Positions 13 to 6,869 of a DNA stretch of 39,022 nucleotides are shown piece after piece (the first letter of the stretch is position 1; the number at the start of each line of letters is the position of its first letter). This stretch comes from Candidatus Eisenbacteria bacterium (GTDB lineage Bacteria > Eisenbacteria > RBG-16-71-46 > SZUA-252), in NCBI GenBank assembly GCA_005893305.1, contig VBOZ01000035.1, positions 59,567-98,588 on the forward strand, read 5' to 3'. The position numbers and the translations under genes are program-made. The notes beneath the pieces were generated by a model. The model did not search any database, was not told the origin of the DNA, and saw nothing but the letters and a program-made list of their open reading frames with translations.

Positions 13-873
13 CTAAGGAATCAAATCGCCCTTCGGAGCGGTTGCCTCGGCGATCTTGAGGGCGGCATTATAGTGATCCAGCGCCTGCCGGAATTCCTTC
101 TGCAAGAGATGACAATCGCCCATGTACTCAAGGCAGATCGCCTCTTCTCGAGAGAATCGTTGCTCACGCGTCGTGGCAAGGATCGGCGTTAGGATTTCGA
201 GGGCCTGGGCGGGGTGGTGGGTCAACACGAGGTAGCGGGCGCGGAGGAGGTGGACGAGGGCAGACCACAAGCTGTTGCCGGCGCGTGCGACAAGCGCTTG
301 AGCCTCATCGAGCAACGCAGGGATCTTGGAAAGAGGGCCTGATTTTAGAAGCGTGACAATCAGGTTAATTCGGAGTCCTCCCGATTCCTTATCACACCCA
401 ATCTCGTCGGCCGTAATTATCGCGCTCTCGGCTTCAAATCGCGCCAGCGCCCATAGACCTCGATTCTTGAACAAAACTACTAATTGCCGCTGGTGTCGGA
501 GGGCTTCCTCGCGGTCGGCGAGATCCCAGATCGAGACGTGGATGGCAGCGCGGATGTGCTCCTCAGCTCTACGGAGGTTACCGAGGCGAAGCTGCGCCAC
601 GCCTAATACCGCGTGTGCAGTGCACAGGGATCTCGACAAGCGATCACGTGACAGTCGTGGGATTAGAGCGGAGCCGAGCGAAGTCAACTCCTCCCATCGC
701 CCGGTATCGTGGAGACAATTCAATCTCAGCGCGAGGGCTTCCTCCACCAATGACGGCTCACCAGAATCCGACCACAATTGTGTGCTGCAAAGAATGTGGA
801 GTGCGTCTTCTTGCCGCCCAACTGAGATAAGAGCTACGGCCGAGTCGATAAGTTCACGGCTGAGGCTGCTCAT
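13..873 (-). CDS. TPR-repeat protein, function unknown
   Basis: This is a soluble protein of about 286 aa made almost wholly of paired amphipathic helices. Motifs such as LGNLRRAEEHIRAAI and EYMGDCHLLQKEFRQALDHY are typical of tetratricopeptide repeats, which serve as protein-interaction scaffolds. No catalytic motif or signal peptide is visible. The start is uncertain. An ATG at 873 begins the first clear helix (SSLSRELIDSAVAL). An in-frame TTG at 924 lies only 4 nt after the stop of the preceding gene but has no ribosome-binding site. It is the last gene of a leftward trio with 929-1246 and 1243-1419. Its helices resemble those in the C-terminal part of the divergent kinase-ATPase-TPR protein, so the two may share a partner; that link is inference. 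The TPR call is firm and the role is unknown. Confidence 0.75.
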   Translation of the reverse strand: MSSLSRELIDSAVALISVGRQEDALHILCSTQLWSDSGEPSLVEEALALRLNCLHDTGRWEELTSLGSALIPRLSRDRLSRSLCTAHAVLGVAQLRLGNLRRAEEHIRAAIHVSIWDLADREEALRHQRQLVVLFKNRGLWALARFEAESAIITADEIGCDKESGGLRINLIVTLLKSGPLSKIPALLDEAQALVARAGNSLWSALVHLLRARYLVLTHHPAQALEILTPILATTREQRFSREEAICLEYMGDCHLLQKEFRQALDHYNAALKIAEATAPKGDLIP

Positions 874-928
874 GATCAGGCCGGAATTGCCCGCTCCATA
901 AGGCGATGAGCTAGCGAGGGGCAAAATC

Positions 929-1246
929 TCACAACAAGCCCCGGAACCAGAATGAGAGGTAGCGGCGGACAGTCAACCCGACCAAGGTTAATCCAACGCT
1001 CTTTGGCGCTCGAATGTAGCTAGAGACAATGACACTCATTGACGGTTTAGTAGCCGCGATGCTGGTGGGTGGCCCGGGGACGGTGGCCTGATTCCCTGTG
1101 GCGTCTGGATCTCCCATTTCGATTGGCGGCCTTGTCTTCGCGACCGACCAACGAGGAGAAGCAAAAGCCAGCACGCAACTGAAGCTCGCGGTAATGAGAA
1201 TGGCGAAGCCGAGGCGCCGAATACGGATTGCGATCAATGCCTTCAT
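929..1246 (-). CDS. small exported or membrane-anchored protein, unknown
   Basis: This 105-aa protein has a basic N-terminus (MKALIAIRIRRLG) followed by a hydrophobic stretch (FAILITASFSCVLAFA). It looks like a signal peptide or signal anchor. The middle is low in complexity and rich in Gly, Pro, Thr and Asp. A second weakly hydrophobic stretch (SVGLTLVGLTV) and an aromatic end (SFWFRGLL) follow. The start is supported by a GGAG box 5 nt upstream of the ATG. That ATG overlaps the stop of the 58-aa gene by ATGA, so translation is probably coupled. I do not recognise the family. Its position between a peptide gene and a TPR gene suggests one three-gene transcript. Confidence 0.55.
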   Translation of the reverse strand: MKALIAIRIRRLGFAILITASFSCVLAFASPRWSVAKTRPPIEMGDPDATGNQATVPGPPTSIAATKPSMSVIVSSYIRAPKSVGLTLVGLTVRRYLSFWFRGLL

Positions 1247-1611: not shown

Positions 1612-4600
1612 ATGGGGACGCGCGGCAAGTCGATGAAGACTCCTAGCCTTTCGCCCCGTTACACCGTTCGCTCCCTGCTGGGTGCGGGCGGGTCCGGGCG
1701 CGTCTATCGCGTCCACGATTCAATCCGCGATCTCGAGCTTGCCCTGAAGCTCGTTAGTCCCGTCGAGTCGACCTGGCTGCGCCGCGAGTTCGACACCCTC
1801 CGTCAAATCCGTCACGAGAACCTGATCCACGTCTTCGACTGGGGCACTATCCCCTCGGGAGACGCCTACTACACGATGGAATTGATCGAGGGAGGAGATT
1901 GGGGTAGTCGCATGGGCGCGCCTCAATCGGCCGAAGAGGTGCGGCGAATCCTGGCCGGAGTCCTGCGCGCCATCGCCCATCTTCACTCCCACAGGGAGAT
2001 CCATGGGGACTTGAAGCCCGGAAACATCCTCCTAGGTCGAGGTGAGGTCGTCAAGGTTGTCGACGTGGGTATGGGCGGGAACATGGGCGAGGGCGTTGGG
2101 TCTGCTGGAACACCTGGTTATGTCGCGCCGGAAGTCTGGCAGGGCTCGAACGCAGACGAGAAGAGCGATCTCTACTCGGTCGCTGTCCTCGCGTACGAAG
2201 CGCTTGTCGGCGAGCACCCGTTTGCTGGGCGCACGGTACGAGACGTCGTTTCGGGTCAACTCGAGGGTTGGGTGCCGTCCCCAGGCGTGCATGGAATCCG
2301 GGTCCCTCCGGATATTGAGCGCGCTGTGATGCGAGCAATTGATCGGAGTCCCGCGCTGAGACACAAGTACGCCGACGAGATGATGGATGATCTCGGGATC
2401 ACCGATCGCGCCGGCGAGATCCTGGGTGGGAAGATTGTTGCGAGAGACCAGGAGCTTGCGACGCTCGAAGCAATGCTCCGGACGGGTTCGGCGGACGCCC
2501 CCACACTCGTCCACGCGTCCGGCCCTCCTGGGGTCGGCAAGTCAGCCCTCCTAGAGGAATTTTCTCAACATGTTCTGGGGTACGGAGGAAGGGTTGCGAT
2601 CGTTCCCAACCCACCACAGGTAGGCGTGGAGAGGGTTCTTTCGTCGCTGACGGATGGGGGAGCGCGCATGGAGGACGGTTTCCGATCAGGAAGCATTTCG
2701 TCGCTTGCGCCGAAGCTCTTGGAGACGTCTGAGCATGGGCCCGTGTTACTCCTCTTCGAGACTCACGTTGGCGACGCACCGCACTCGATCGACTTCGTCA
2801 GGAATCTCGCCAGGTATTTGTGGGCTCTTCGCATTGAGCACCAGAGCCCATGCAATCTTCTGCTCGCAATCGAAACACACGCGCCGGCTTCCGATGGTGA
2901 GGAATTCGAGCGATGCATGGCGATCACCCCTTTGCTCCCAGACCAAATCGAGGACTTCATCGAGGGCACATTGGGCCAGTCAGCCCTTCAGCCGGAGGTC
3001 CGTGAAAGAATCAGCTCAATCACGGGCGGGGCACCGAGGGCACTCCGAGCCTTACTGGCGGATCTCGTTGATCGTCGCGTTCTCCAGCGTAGCGCGGGAA
3101 AGTGGCGATTCAGGGAGACCGAGCAGCTCCGCAGCCTCGCTGATTTCGGTGCGGCCAGCAGATGGACCCTCGCTTGGTCGCATCTCGGGGAGAATCAACA
3201 AACCCTGCTCGCCCTCCTCTGTCAATTTCCCAATGGTCTGGCGGAAGAGTGCATTGAGGCTGTTCTCCCAGGCTCTGGCGACAGACTGTCGGACCTTGCT
3301 TCGAGAGGTTGGATCAAGACGAACACCGCGACGGTCAGCGAGCTCACGGATCATCGGCAGGTAAATGCGGTACTCGAGAAGCTGGTGTCGCTCTGCCCTG
3401 GCGCGCTCTCGAGGGAAGAGCGGGCAACTGTTCTCCTGACGATCGGATCGGGGGGAGAGACGCTCGACGAGGGATTGTGGGCCGCAGAGCAAAGCATGGC
3501 GCGAGGCGACTTCCGACAGGCACGTGAACGCGCGGAGCGCTGCCTCAGCATCGCTGAGGGGAGGAAGGACGTAGCGGCATCTCGACGCGGCGCCCTGATC
3601 ATCGCTGAGGCGCTGCACCAGTCGGCGGATGACGAAGGAGCCAGTCAGGTCTTGGAAAGTCCCGGCCTTTGGAATTCTGATCGTGGCGCGATACCGGAGT
3701 TCGCGAGGCGGGCTCATCTCTTGGGTACGATACGAACGTCTCAAGGCCAAATGACCGAAGCGAGAACCTATTTATCGCGCGCCGTCGAACTGGCGGAGGA
3801 GGCTGGCGACCTCTCCGCTTCGCTCCGCGCCCACGCTGACCTTGCGGAGATCGATTGGCGGCACGGGGACGAGGCCGCGAGGTCCGCAGCAATTAGCCGG
3901 CTTCGCGCGGTACTCGCTCGAGACTTTGGTGGGCTGACCATGAACGACGAGCGAGCCGCCCTCTCATATCCATTGGGCTCGGCGCTAATCCTCTCGGGTG
4001 ATCGTGCAGGTGCCCGTCAACTTCTGACGAGGGCGCTAGAGCTTCAACCCGGCGACTTTTGGCGAATGAGATTGGCCAACGCGCTCGCGACAGCAACGTA
4101 CTACCTGGGCGAGTTCCAGGAGGCCCTAAGTTGGATTGATGAGGCTTGGCGATGCGCAGAGAGGGGCGGAATCGACGCATTCAAGGCCCGAACCCTCTCG
4201 AATCGCGCCGGAATACTTTACGGACTCGGCCGATTTCGGGAGGCGGTCGACCAGCACGAGCTCTCTGCTCAATGGGGTCGTCGAACGGGAAACGTGTTTG
4301 AGGCCCTCAGTGCGTGCGCAGGGGCATCAGTGAATCTGACTTTGCTAGGTCGGTATGAGGAGGCAATCGAGCGGGCGCGCGAGGCATATCGCGCCGCAGA
4401 GAAGATCGGAAACCTCCACGAAATCGCCAAATGTCAGGAGCTGGAGGCCCTCGCTCACTTCTACATCGGAGCCTATGAGGACGCGGACCGGCTCGCTCTT
4501 TCGGCGATAGAGCGTATTCGAGACCAGGGGTTTGATGACGTAAGACCGAGACTGGACTGGCTTCAAGCTCGCGTCTGCATGGCGAAGGGAGGCTTTGAGA

Positions 4601-5091
4601 AGGCCGAGGTGTTGCTTATTCGAGCGCGGGAGGTGCTTCTACGTACCCAGGATTGGGAGGATCTACCGGGGGTCCAAATCGAAATGCAGGACCTCCACTT
4701 CCGAAAGCAGGATCCGCGATTCAGCCTGATGGACGTGACGCGCATTACGGTCGAAGCCGACCGCGCCCATGCTCTGGTTGTCTACCTTCACGGTGCCGTC
4801 GTTATTGCAGAGGTCATCCTGGCAAACGGGACTGATGATCGGGAACACCGGGATCTGCTCCTCAACGCGCTTGGTAAGGCGGAGGAGTCTGGAGCTGTTG
4901 AATTCAGTTGGCAGTTGAGCTACGTCCTTGGCGAACTCGCAAGATTGGACGCTGACACCCGGGGAGCGTCGGCGCGATACGCTCATGCCCTGAGGAGGCT
5001 TAGAGAAGTCGCAGACCGCCTCAGCCCTGAACATCGCCGTAGCTACCTTCAGACCGCCCATGCTCGCCGCCTCCTCGAACGCGCATCGTAA
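1612..5091 (+). CDS. serine/threonine protein kinase fused to ATPase and TPR domains
   Basis: This is a large cytoplasmic signalling protein of about 1159 aa. The kinase domain covers residues about 17-265: Gly-rich loop GAGGSGRVY, ATP-binding Lys46 in ALKLV, catalytic loop HGDLKPGN (131-138), metal-binding motif DVG at 151-153 instead of DFG, and APE at 172-174. A STAND-like ATPase module follows, with Walker A GPPGVGKS at 304-311. Its Walker B is poor: LLLFET where DD is usual. The C-terminal half (about 610-1130) is a run of TPR helices. This architecture matches PknK-like kinase-ATPase-TPR regulators. No transmembrane segment is seen, so the signal is probably sensed by the TPR part. The start could also be the adjacent GTG at 1609 or ATG at 1633; no ribosome-binding site decides. 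It is divergent from the small operon and convergent with the PAGNDLK lipoprotein. Confidence 0.92.
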   Translation: MGTRGKSMKTPSLSPRYTVRSLLGAGGSGRVYRVHDSIRDLELALKLVSPVESTWLRREFDTLRQIRHENLIHVFDWGTIPSGDAYYTMELIEGGDWGSRMGAPQSAEEVRRILAGVLRAIAHLHSHREIHGDLKPGNILLGRGEVVKVVDVGMGGNMGEGVGSAGTPGYVAPEVWQGSNADEKSDLYSVAVLAYEALVGEHPFAGRTVRDVVSGQLEGWVPSPGVHGIRVPPDIERAVMRAIDRSPALRHKYADEMMDDLGITDRAGEILGGKIVARDQELATLEAMLRTGSADAPTLVHASGPPGVGKSALLEEFSQHVLGYGGRVAIVPNPPQVGVERVLSSLTDGGARMEDGFRSGSISSLAPKLLETSEHGPVLLLFETHVGDAPHSIDFVRNLARYLWALRIEHQSPCNLLLAIETHAPASDGEEFERCMAITPLLPDQIEDFIEGTLGQSALQPEVRERISSITGGAPRALRALLADLVDRRVLQRSAGKWRFRETEQLRSLADFGAASRWTLAWSHLGENQQTLLALLCQFPNGLAEECIEAVLPGSGDRLSDLASRGWIKTNTATVSELTDHRQVNAVLEKLVSLCPGALSREERATVLLTIGSGGETLDEGLWAAEQSMARGDFRQARERAERCLSIAEGRKDVAASRRGALIIAEALHQSADDEGASQVLESPGLWNSDRGAIPEFARRAHLLGTIRTSQGQMTEARTYLSRAVELAEEAGDLSASLRAHADLAEIDWRHGDEAARSAAISRLRAVLARDFGGLTMNDERAALSYPLGSALILSGDRAGARQLLTRALELQPGDFWRMRLANALATATYYLGEFQEALSWIDEAWRCAERGGIDAFKARTLSNRAGILYGLGRFREAVDQHELSAQWGRRTGNVFEALSACAGASVNLTLLGRYEEAIERAREAYRAAEKIGNLHEIAKCQELEALAHFYIGAYEDADRLALSAIERIRDQGFDDVRPRLDWLQARVCMAKGGFEKAEVLLIRAREVLLRTQDWEDLPGVQIEMQDLHFRKQDPRFSLMDVTRITVEADRAHALVVYLHGAVVIAEVILANGTDDREHRDLLLNALGKAEESGAVEFSWQLSYVLGELARLDADTRGASARYAHALRRLREVADRLSPEHRRSYLQTAHARRLLERAS

Positions 5092-5101
5092 GTAGCTCGA
5101 G

Positions 5102-5320
5102 TTACGGCTTGAGGTCGTTACCGGCAGGCTTCAGATCGTTGCCAGCAGGCTTCAGATCGTTACCCGCGGGACTGGCGATCGTGGTTCCACTCTGCGCGCT
5201 ATCCGGCAAAGGGTTCATAAGAGCGTTCTGGCCGCAGCCGGTTGAGAGCAGCGCCGCGAACAAGAAGAAGCTCACCGCCGCCAGCCTGAGTCCCTTTTTC
5301 ATTCCCCTCGTGCGTTCCAT
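5102..5320 (-). CDS. short lipoprotein ending in three PAGNDLK heptads
   Basis: This is a 72-aa exported lipoprotein. The start at 5320 is fixed by a strong AGGAGG box 6 nt upstream; a second in-frame ATG at 5302 is internal. A basic n-region (MERTRGMKKGLRL), a hydrophobic core (AAVSFFLFAALL) and the lipobox LSTGC give a cleavage and lipidation site at Cys30. The mature part is only about 43 residues. Its end is three tandem PAGNDLK heptads plus a final Pro. All base differences among the three repeats are synonymous, so the peptide sequence is under selection. It converges on the kinase gene with an 11-bp gap. I do not know the family. It could be a surface peptide or a processed signal; both are inference. 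Confidence 0.72.
   Translation of the reverse strand: MERTRGMKKGLRLAAVSFFLFAALLSTGCGQNALMNPLPDSAQSGTTIASPAGNDLKPAGNDLKPAGNDLKP
5108..5170 (-). repeat. 3 x 21-bp tandem repeat encoding PAGNDLK
   Basis: Three contiguous 21-bp units lie at 5150-5170, 5129-5149 and 5108-5128. Each encodes Pro-Ala-Gly-Asn-Asp-Leu-Lys. The units differ from one another at 3 to 4 positions, all third codon positions. Confidence 0.95.
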
Positions 5321-5675
5321 CTGAACCTCCTTGCGTCGTTCCGTCCAAGAACCAGCCCCACTTCTGGCCAGTGAGTAGGGCAACCCAAGGGCCAGGGGCC
5401 AGTCGTTGGGGAACAGTGGTCCGGATCCGAGCCGCGGCGGTAAGGCGCTGAAAAGGAGAGACTTAGTGGCCAGAGCGAGTGGCTATTTTTTAGCCACTTC
5501 TTGCGGGTGGGACGGGGAGCGGAGGATTGAGGGTCAGATCGAGGGGCGAAGCGGTGTTTTGATTCTGGAAATTGGACTAAGCCTTGTCGGGGGAATGCCT
5601 TAACTCGTTGGTTTATATGAACCAGCCTTGGAGGAAAATTCCGCAGGCGCCGCGGAGGGCTCAAAAGACTACAAC
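5321..5675. other. intergenic region with two inverted repeats, no gene seen
   Basis: This 355-bp gap separates the zinc peptidase stop from the lipoprotein start. A weak open frame at 5406-5603 has no ribosome-binding site or protein-like composition and was not accepted. Two inverted repeats are visible: AGTGGCTA/TAGCCACT at 5478-5498, and TGGTT/AACCA around TATATG near 5610-5625. No convincing -35/-10 pair for the lipoprotein gene was found. Confidence 0.5.
5478..5498. repeat. 8-bp perfect inverted repeat with T5 spacer
   Basis: AGTGGCTA, five T residues, then TAGCCACT. The arms match perfectly. The T run is in the loop rather than after the stem, so it is not a standard intrinsic terminator. 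It might be an operator or an RNA hairpin in the lipoprotein leader. Confidence 0.5.
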
Positions 5676-6869
5676 CTACTGCAGCGTAATTAACTCGACA
5701 GGAATTCCGCTCAACCCCGGGTTTCGACGGGCGACCTGGCGGTAGGTCTTCAGAAACTCGTCCGGCCCGGCCTCGATGGCCTGCCTGAGCACCTTTTTCC
5801 CCAGCGCCACCTCGATCCGGTGCGCCGCGAACATGCCGCTGATCGCACCATATTTGCTCCAGAGGGGTCCGCTTCCGGCGAGCTGAAGGATCTCGATTAG
5901 ATCGCCGCGCGCCGCGCCGGGCTGCCTCAGCCTCCTGCACGCGGTTGCCAACTGAGAGAACGCGAAGGTCTCCCGCGAGCTGGGTTTCCATGTGAACAAT
6001 GTGTCGGCTCCCGGGCGCTCGCGCCAGTCGATGTAGTGCGCGATGCCCTCGTCCAGCATCACCCTGCGGACGTATGCGAAATCGGACAGAGAGTTGTCGC
6101 GATAGTCGTCCCACCCGGGAAGCGTTACCTCGGCCTGGTGAAGTCCGGCATGAAACACCTCGTGAGCGAGAACGTGCTCCAAAGTTTCCAGGCGCTCCGC
6201 GGTCGTGTTTCCGTAAGACAAGACATCGGTCAGGTTGATCAGGATCGTGGGGACGGAATCGCCGTCCGCGCTCGCGCGAAGCGACACCGCGTCGAACATG
6301 GTCTGGCTTGCGATCACGAACCAGACCCTGACTTTCTTCCACGAACGCGCTTCGGGGAGATATCGGGCGGCGTCGCCGGCGATTTGCGAGGCTAGAGTTG
6401 CTCTCCGCGAGGAGACCGCTCCCGCGACCGCGGCGATCGAATCGCGGCTCTTGTAGGCGGGATCCATCCCAAAGCCGCAGATTCCCGAATCGGGAAGCTC
6501 GATCGCGCGGGCAACTTCCTCTTCAGAGGGAGCGCACCTGAATTGCTCTCGCAGGAAGACGCGAAGGGTTTGATACGGAAGGGTCCGAGCAATCTTATGC
6601 GCTTCGGCGCGCGTGACGCCGCCAGGGCGCCCTTTGCGCCCGCCGAGTTTCCAGAGCGAGAGCACCCGCGTCGCGGGAGAAACGTCCAGAACCACGTCGG
6701 TGGCGGTGAGGGGGCGCTCCGTCGCTGGGCGACGCTCCACCGTTGTCGCTCCCGGGCTACGCCTTGGTGCGGTCGGCGCGGTGGTGCGCTCGCCCGCGGT
6801 GACGAGTGCGGTCGCTCCAGAAACGCCGACGAGAGAGAGGATGAGCAGCGCGATCGCGGCGCGACTCAG
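5676..6869 (-). CDS. exported zinc metallopeptidase, DUF5700-like
   Basis: This protein has a gluzincin-like zinc site: HEVFH (about residues 236-240) followed some 30 residues later by LDEGIAHY, where the Glu would be the third ligand. This HExxH plus EGxAH arrangement resembles the DUF5700 putative zinc peptidases. The first ordinary start codon in frame is the GTG at 6740. The frame stays open upstream of it and encodes a clear signal peptide (SRAAIALLILSLVGVSGATA) with no ATG, GTG or TTG. I therefore propose a CTG start at 6869, 4 nt after the stop of the acyl-CoA synthetase gene. A GAGGGGG box lies about 11 nt upstream. This gives about 397 aa. It is probably co-transcribed with that gene. 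The substrate is unknown. Confidence 0.75.
   Translation of the reverse strand: MSRAAIALLILSLVGVSGATALVTAGERTTAPTAPRRSPGATTVERRPATERPLTATDVVLDVSPATRVLSLWKLGGRKGRPGGVTRAEAHKIARTLPYQTLRVFLREQFRCAPSEEEVARAIELPDSGICGFGMDPAYKSRDSIAAVAGAVSSRRATLASQIAGDAARYLPEARSWKKVRVWFVIASQTMFDAVSLRASADGDSVPTILINLTDVLSYGNTTAERLETLEHVLAHEVFHAGLHQAEVTLPGWDDYRDNSLSDFAYVRRVMLDEGIAHYIDWRERPGADTLFTWKPSSRETFAFSQLATACRRLRQPGAARGDLIEILQLAGSGPLWSKYGAISGMFAAHRIEVALGKKVLRQAIEAGPDEFLKTYRQVARRNPGLSGIPVELITLQ

Follow-up and report, generated by a model that had tools for sequence, protein, structure and literature searches.

Signaling by short peptides that carry no modification and are read by TPR proteins inside the cell has been described for Bacillota, and multi-copy propeptides, with as many as six copies and Sec export via SPI or SPII, are documented for the RRNPPA receptors AimR, NprR, PlcR, and Rap (PMC9765709, PMC11343458). 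In such systems (Phr/Rap, NprX/NprR, PapR/PlcR, and AimP, all from Bacillota), the gene for a TPR receptor adjoins that for a small precursor exported by Sec, and the mature peptides are C-terminal, 5 to 10 residues long, receptor-specific, and in some cases present as multiple identical copies. The locus described here, from a Candidatus Eisenbacteria bacterium, has a comparable layout: a small ORF with predicted Sec export adjoins a gene for a candidate TPR receptor, and the putative peptide lies near the C-terminus of the precursor as a series of heptads. It differs in its phylum, in having a convergent precursor gene and a sigma-54 promoter, and in carrying repeats in every homologue found. 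In place of the N-terminal HTH or Rap-type three-helix bundle of RRNPPA receptors, the candidate receptor has a kinase domain followed by an AAA_16 domain; because these replace the RRNPPA output modules, we regard the locus as one that would work like an RRNPPA system rather than as a member of that group.

Three other kinds of system offer partial parallels. Regulators of the AfsR/MalT/PknK type also combine a STAND-like NTPase with a TPR array behind it; those that are known respond to metabolites or to partner proteins, and we know of none with a linked repeat peptide. The yeast alpha-factor precursor (MFalpha1) contains identical pheromone repeats, with the pheromone differing between species, although it is eukaryotic, is processed by Kex2, acts on a GPCR, and is unrelated to the locus here. 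At pherotype loci, conserved flanks switch sharply to a hypervariable block that holds the peptide signal and the sensor half of a kinase, the catalytic half of which is conserved. Polymorphic pherotype loci as described in two sources are comQXPA of Bacillus and comCDE of Streptococcus (PMC4408185, PMC5629823). Pherotype loci use membrane histidine kinases with modified or plain secreted peptides and vary within one species, whereas the present locus pairs a soluble Ser/Thr kinase with a tandem-heptad lipoprotein and shows its diversity from one species to another.

The stretch of DNA analyzed (the window; 39,022 nucleotides) is part of contig C35 (VBOZ01000035.1) of G000, a 2.75-Mb MAG of an uncultured Candidatus Eisenbacteria bacterium from soil. 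Features at the locus are collected in Table 1.

Table 1. Positions of features in the window, with the evidence or remarks that go with each
Feature	Position	Strand	Evidence or remark
Second small predicted secreted ORF	929..1246	-	Upstream of activator, same strand; counterparts in G001, G003, and G006
TPR sigma-54 activator, N-terminal TPR part	13..924	-	Gene runs past window start over assembly gap (Ns)
Ser/Thr kinase - AAA_16 NTPase - TPR protein, 1160 aa	1609..5091	+	Convergent with lipoprotein, 10 bp apart
Kinase catalytic domain, aa 18-263	1660..2397	+	HGDLKPGN, K in LALKL; conserved part
Kinase NTPase and TPR part, aa 276-1160	2434..5088	+	Hypervariable between homologues
Heptapeptide-repeat lipoprotein CDS, 72 aa	5102..5320	-	ATG 5320-5318, TAA 5104-5102; homologues
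Tandem heptapeptide units AGNDLKP x3, C-terminal extremity	5105..5167	-	Synonymous-only differences between units
Predicted signal peptide and lipobox, aa 1-28, LLSTG/C29	5237..5320	-	Alignment, hydropathy
Ribosome-binding site AAGGAGG	5326..5332	-	5 nt upstream of lipoprotein ATG
Sigma-54 (-24/-12) promoter TGGCCC-N5-TTGC	5380..5394	-	Sequence and position conserved in 5/5 homologues
Palindrome AGTGGCTATTTTTTAGCCACT, candidate sigma-54 activator site	5478..5498		102 bp upstream of -24 element
DUF5700 putative zinc peptidase	5676..6740	-	Upstream of lipoprotein, same strand, genus g1 only

The lipoprotein encoded in the window is MERTRGMKKGLRLAAVSFFLFAALLSTG/CGQNALMNPLPDSAQSGTTIASP-AGNDLKP-AGNDLKP-AGNDLKP, ending there at the stop codon, with the slash standing directly before Cys29. 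Its n-region (MERTRGMKKG..), hydrophobic stretch, and LLSTGC lipobox are those of a bacterial lipoprotein as predicted from sequence, so the protein is predicted to be exported by Sec and, from the LSTGC lipobox, to be lipid-anchored. The mature part is as tiny as originally proposed, with 44 residues from Cys29 on. The T-G-C of the lipobox is invariant in four aligned homologues and was found in the fifth as well. Conservation, the ribosome-binding site, and the promoter support the ORF as a real, conserved gene.

Four homologues were found beyond the window: one in G001, of the same genus (g1), one each in G003 and G006, of a sister genus (g2), and one in L057 (contig QHRS01000329.1). All fall in one family (f1), which with the window makes five loci, every one of them from a MAG. 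The signal peptide, the lipobox, and an NAL[ML]NP motif are conserved in all five proteins, together with an N-terminus beginning MER..., the sequence AALLSTGC, and two to three terminal heptads. Among 47 genomes of the class, none outside family f1 had a homologue, and 38 further genomes were without one; none was found in plasmids, and a search of the window genome for a paralogous lipoprotein family returned none. A weak match in G026 was rejected as a different, longer lipoprotein with similarity confined to the signal-peptide region. G004 (97% complete) and G008 were without the lipoprotein, an orthologue of the kinase, and a close activator. Neither lipoprotein nor kinase was detected in G002 and G005, where the activators (61% identity) are cut by contig ends, and for that reason these two genomes are not countable as losses. 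L057, which was the one further match among genome contigs, is binned as Candidatus Rokuibacteriota AR9, and its kinase is identical over 312 aa (100%, rounded) to that of the Eisenbacteria genome G007. In all likelihood the contig belongs to the species of G007 and was mis-binned, and given this identity it most likely supplies the piece that is missing at the G007 contig end.

Tandem Repeats Finder reports a 21-bp unit in 2.8 copies (5106-5164). Read in the register PAGNDLK, the three units differ pairwise at 3, 4, and 4 bases, every one synonymous (pS, 0.56 to 0.77; pN, 0), exactly as the original prediction had stated. The window repeats require at least 6 changes, with no change of amino acid, an outcome that has a probability of about 5e-5 without selection in simulations. 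The pattern recurs within the homologous genes, with 6 synonymous and 0 replacement changes in G006, 4 and 0 in G003, and 5 and 1 in L057; the units of G001 are under weaker constraint and are not identical, with M/L/V and K/H replacements. Combined, the synonymous and replacement changes give a P of about 1e-10 under a simple point-mutation model. Synonymous sites are near saturation between units in three of the five genes (window, G006, and G003), with L057 slightly looser and G001 the weakest. These results bear out the claim that selection acts on the peptide and not on the DNA. A role for the repeat as a DNA or RNA element was rejected, because the units have diverged at synonymous sites and the predicted RNA fold is no better than that of shuffled sequences (z of -0.01).

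Counted from the C-terminus, the best register is AGNDLKP x3 preceded by S-P. The repeats are C-terminal as first described, with a natural unit that is shifted from the PAGNDLK given at that time. The other tails are AGNELKP x2 in G006, GGQQPNP x2 in G003, [SA]GQPSNP x2 in L057, and AAKHD[ML]N/AAHHDVN x3 plus a P in G001. A period of 7 is the best in all five homologues, each of which has its repeats at the C-terminus and finishes in [KN]P. The original prediction expected variable copy number with a conserved peptide; we found two to three copies, and the heptad itself varies between species while the N-terminus of the lipoprotein is conserved. It also held that a nonconserved tail would refute it. 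The tail sequence does differ, yet its period, its copies, its placement, and the identity of units within a gene are maintained, and since the tail changes along with the sensor part of the linked kinase, as is expected of a signal and its receptor, that test was wrongly framed.

The proposed linkage to the kinase held at all five loci, where the lipoprotein gene lies tail-to-tail with an orthologous kinase gene across a gap of a few bases to a few tens. The lipoprotein occurs only in genomes that have the kinase, and the pair stays linked while activator and peptidase neighbors rearrange, so that it survives rearrangement. About 14 similar kinases are present in the window genome, and no comparable small lipoprotein neighbor was found at other kinases in the twelve regions checked. 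Soluble kinase-TPR proteins are numerous in G000, G001, and G005 (2.7 to 3.5 Mb; 16 to 46 kinase-domain matches), as are sigma-54 activators. The linked kinase matches AAA_16 and TPR_12 in Pfam behind an N-terminal protein kinase domain. Its sensor part was modeled as a TPR superhelix (mean pLDDT of 84), for which the nearest solved folds are of the LGN type, and LGN binds extended peptides. In the model, the first helices of each TPR are more conserved than the second, and the NTPase region varies most; since first helices usually line the groove, it is not clear that the groove forms the variable surface. We therefore do not regard variation in the TPR groove as proving ligand specificity. 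An identity as an anti-phage defense kinase (PD-T4-6, Stk2, or MADS) was rejected, with PADLOC matches confined to the kinase domain and NCBIfam matches below cutoffs.

Between the congeners G003 and G006, DNA homology (75%) extends through the activator, the promoter, and the lipoprotein gene and breaks off at codon 50 of the latter, immediately ahead of the repeats; hardly any can be detected across the TPR region of the kinase. Kinase identity between G003 and L057 is 91% in the catalytic domain, 46% in the NTPase, and 55% in the TPRs. The ratio of noncatalytic to catalytic divergence for this kinase is 5.8 for G003-L057 and 2.3 for pairs with the window, compared to 0.6 to 1.7 for other kinase pairs from the same genomes, taken as orthologous or best-matching pairs. 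The TPR part of the activator also evolves fast between G006 and G003 (59% identity versus 90% for AAA+ and HTH; ratio, 4.0), with other pairs at 1.2 to 2.0 and a paralogous activator at 0.9 to 1.2. G006 and the window have near-identical heptads (AGNELKP and AGNDLKP), and their kinase TPRs are 48% alike, versus 42% between G006 and its congener G003; the AAA+ and HTH parts of the activator behave in the opposite way, G006 being 90% identical to G003 and 71% to the window. Peptide and kinase sensor thus vary together between conserved flanks as at pherotype loci, here between species and through few independent changes. Because the changes are few, and because the four-point pattern of kinase distances also fits the species tree if some lineages evolved faster than others, the evidence that heptad type is coupled to the kinase sensor part is suggestive, not conclusive.

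The first description of the locus recognized the kinase but not the sigma-54 promoter, the palindrome, the sigma-54 activator with its TPRs, or the second small secreted ORF. A TGGC-N7-TTGC sequence lies 70 to 75 bp before the lipoprotein start codon at each of the five loci, with GG at -24 and GC at -12, a conserved upstream site, and rpoN in the window genome; by these motifs the promoter is predicted to depend on sigma-54. Sites of the TTGCCCT type were rejected as markers of a dedicated regulon, as they also precede unrelated genes. TGGC-N7-TTGCCCT sites stand before phage tail sheath-like and pilus-type ATPase-like genes (G001:C236:22587 and G000:C8:81190). In g1, the best fit to TGGCCAA-N3-TTGGCCA stands 102 bp upstream of the -24 element; in g2, the spacing is 91 bp, shorter by about one helical turn. 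The match is perfect in G001. In the window, some bases are changed, yet the palindrome is still perfect. In G006 and L057, the match is weak and each sequence taken singly is within the range of shuffles, so that the argument rests on the shared position. A relaxed genome search turned up a single further occurrence in the window genome and no further one in G001. The palindrome is a candidate binding site for the linked activator, a protein with TPRs, an AAA+ domain, and a Fis-type HTH that adjoins the module at the four loci assembled far enough to show its place. The activator gene is divergent from the kinase gene in g1 (window and G001); in g2 (G003 and G006), it lies upstream of the lipoprotein gene on the same strand, the place that the DUF5700 gene has in g1. 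In the window genome, a 7-N assembly gap beside an in-frame TAG breaks the activator gene (G000 C35:59556-59570) just before window position 1, and as the window begins right beside this gap, the TPR part has the appearance of an ORF of its own; we make no claim of a frameshift.

Counterparts of the second small ORF were found at L055 about 5367-5642, G003 C73:27306-27623, and G006 C38 about 4500-4780. Its signal peptide and an A[KR]T...GD motif are conserved, and the C-terminus is variable and often rich in Trp and Arg. This ORF possibly encodes a second signal peptide, and given its place beside the activator, the locus may hold two exported peptides, each next to a TPR regulator. The association of the DUF5700 peptidase with the lipoprotein is uncertain; it lies upstream of the lipoprotein gene only in g1, and we did not adopt it as the maturation protease.

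The reading that best accommodates these data is that the lipoprotein is the precursor of a secreted tandem heptapeptide signal, with the linked kinase-NTPase-TPR protein, and possibly the activator too, as its specific intracellular receptor; we give it a probability of about 0.48. The activator would bind the palindrome and drive sigma-54 transcription of the precursor, which would be exported by Sec and lipid-modified, as predicted. A protease would free the heptapeptides, neighboring or the same cells would take them up, and binding to the kinase sensor part would alter phosphorylation of downstream targets, which plausibly include the activator and so could close a feedback loop. Copies within a gene would stay identical because each must fit one receptor, and between lineages a change of peptide would come only together with a change of sensor, the behavior of polymorphic pherotype loci. 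Among the functions first suggested for the protein (ligand, anchor, or signal precursor), the signal precursor fits best, and nothing found supports an anchor. Several points count against this function, which we infer: the loci number only five and belong to one family of MAGs, the conserved part of the locus contains neither a dedicated protease nor a peptide importer, the groove helices are the better conserved ones, and the units of G001 are not identical. In addition, the phylum is presumed diderm, so the peptide would have to pass through two membranes before it met a kinase in the cytoplasm.

Release and import over two membranes would be unnecessary if the tail of the unexported precursor bound the TPRs of the kinase or activator in the cytoplasm and the cell thereby sensed production or export of the lipoprotein. 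This would account for the linkage, the constraint at the peptide level, and the joint change of tail and sensor, and the tail is the last part of the precursor to be made. Exact tandem heptads that finish at the C-terminus nonetheless look made for cutting into equal peptides, fast change of a code between species is more typical of intercellular signals, and we know of no precedent for such an arrangement; we consider it unlikely, if less so than the other alternatives. Slightly lower still we rank a multivalent surface ligand or recognition tag, in which the tail would bind an envelope or partner-cell protein and diversify under pressure from phages or rivals while the kinase regulates the lipoprotein for other reasons. 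The lipobox, followed after the Cys by a residue of the outer-membrane type (G or S, by the Lol rule), suits such a role, as do tandem repeats, which are common in surface ligands, and the shift of sequence between species with the architecture kept. The mature part, however, has only about 44 residues, and a surface role leaves unexplained both the co-change of the sensor of a cytoplasmic kinase that is an outlier among kinases and the break in homology at the heptads, with homology strong again at the kinase catalytic domain.

In such kinases, the TPRs and the NTPase can be quick to diverge, the helices of the TPR groove are not the variable ones, and sampling of MAGs is thin; an ordinary sigma-54-controlled small lipoprotein might then simply have as its neighbor a fast-evolving kinase whose ligand is unrelated to it. 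Mere coincidence is hard to reconcile with tail-to-tail placement at five of five loci despite rearrangement of the activator and peptidase genes, with the restriction of the lipoprotein to genomes that have the kinase, and with the lack of hypervariability in other kinases there, and we judge it improbable, more so than a surface ligand. Very much less probable is a RiPP precursor with several cores. A leader with a repeated short core is the layout of a RiPP, but the leader here is a Sec lipoprotein signal peptide, the core in the window is without Cys, Ser, or Thr, and no modifying enzyme was found in the conserved neighborhood.

Extended to the whole locus, the signal-precursor reading becomes a quorum-sensing-type system outside Bacillota, in which a sigma-54-controlled lipoprotein releases heptapeptides that are read by a soluble Ser/Thr kinase-NTPase-TPR protein, a second peptide may pair with the activator, and the locus diversifies as a specificity cassette. 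We put this fuller scenario forward tentatively, as a possibility that stands below the simpler pairing of precursor and receptor. If true, it would mean that multi-copy peptide signaling reaches another part of the tree and extends to Ser/Thr kinases. Many Ser/Thr kinases in such genomes are without a known ligand.
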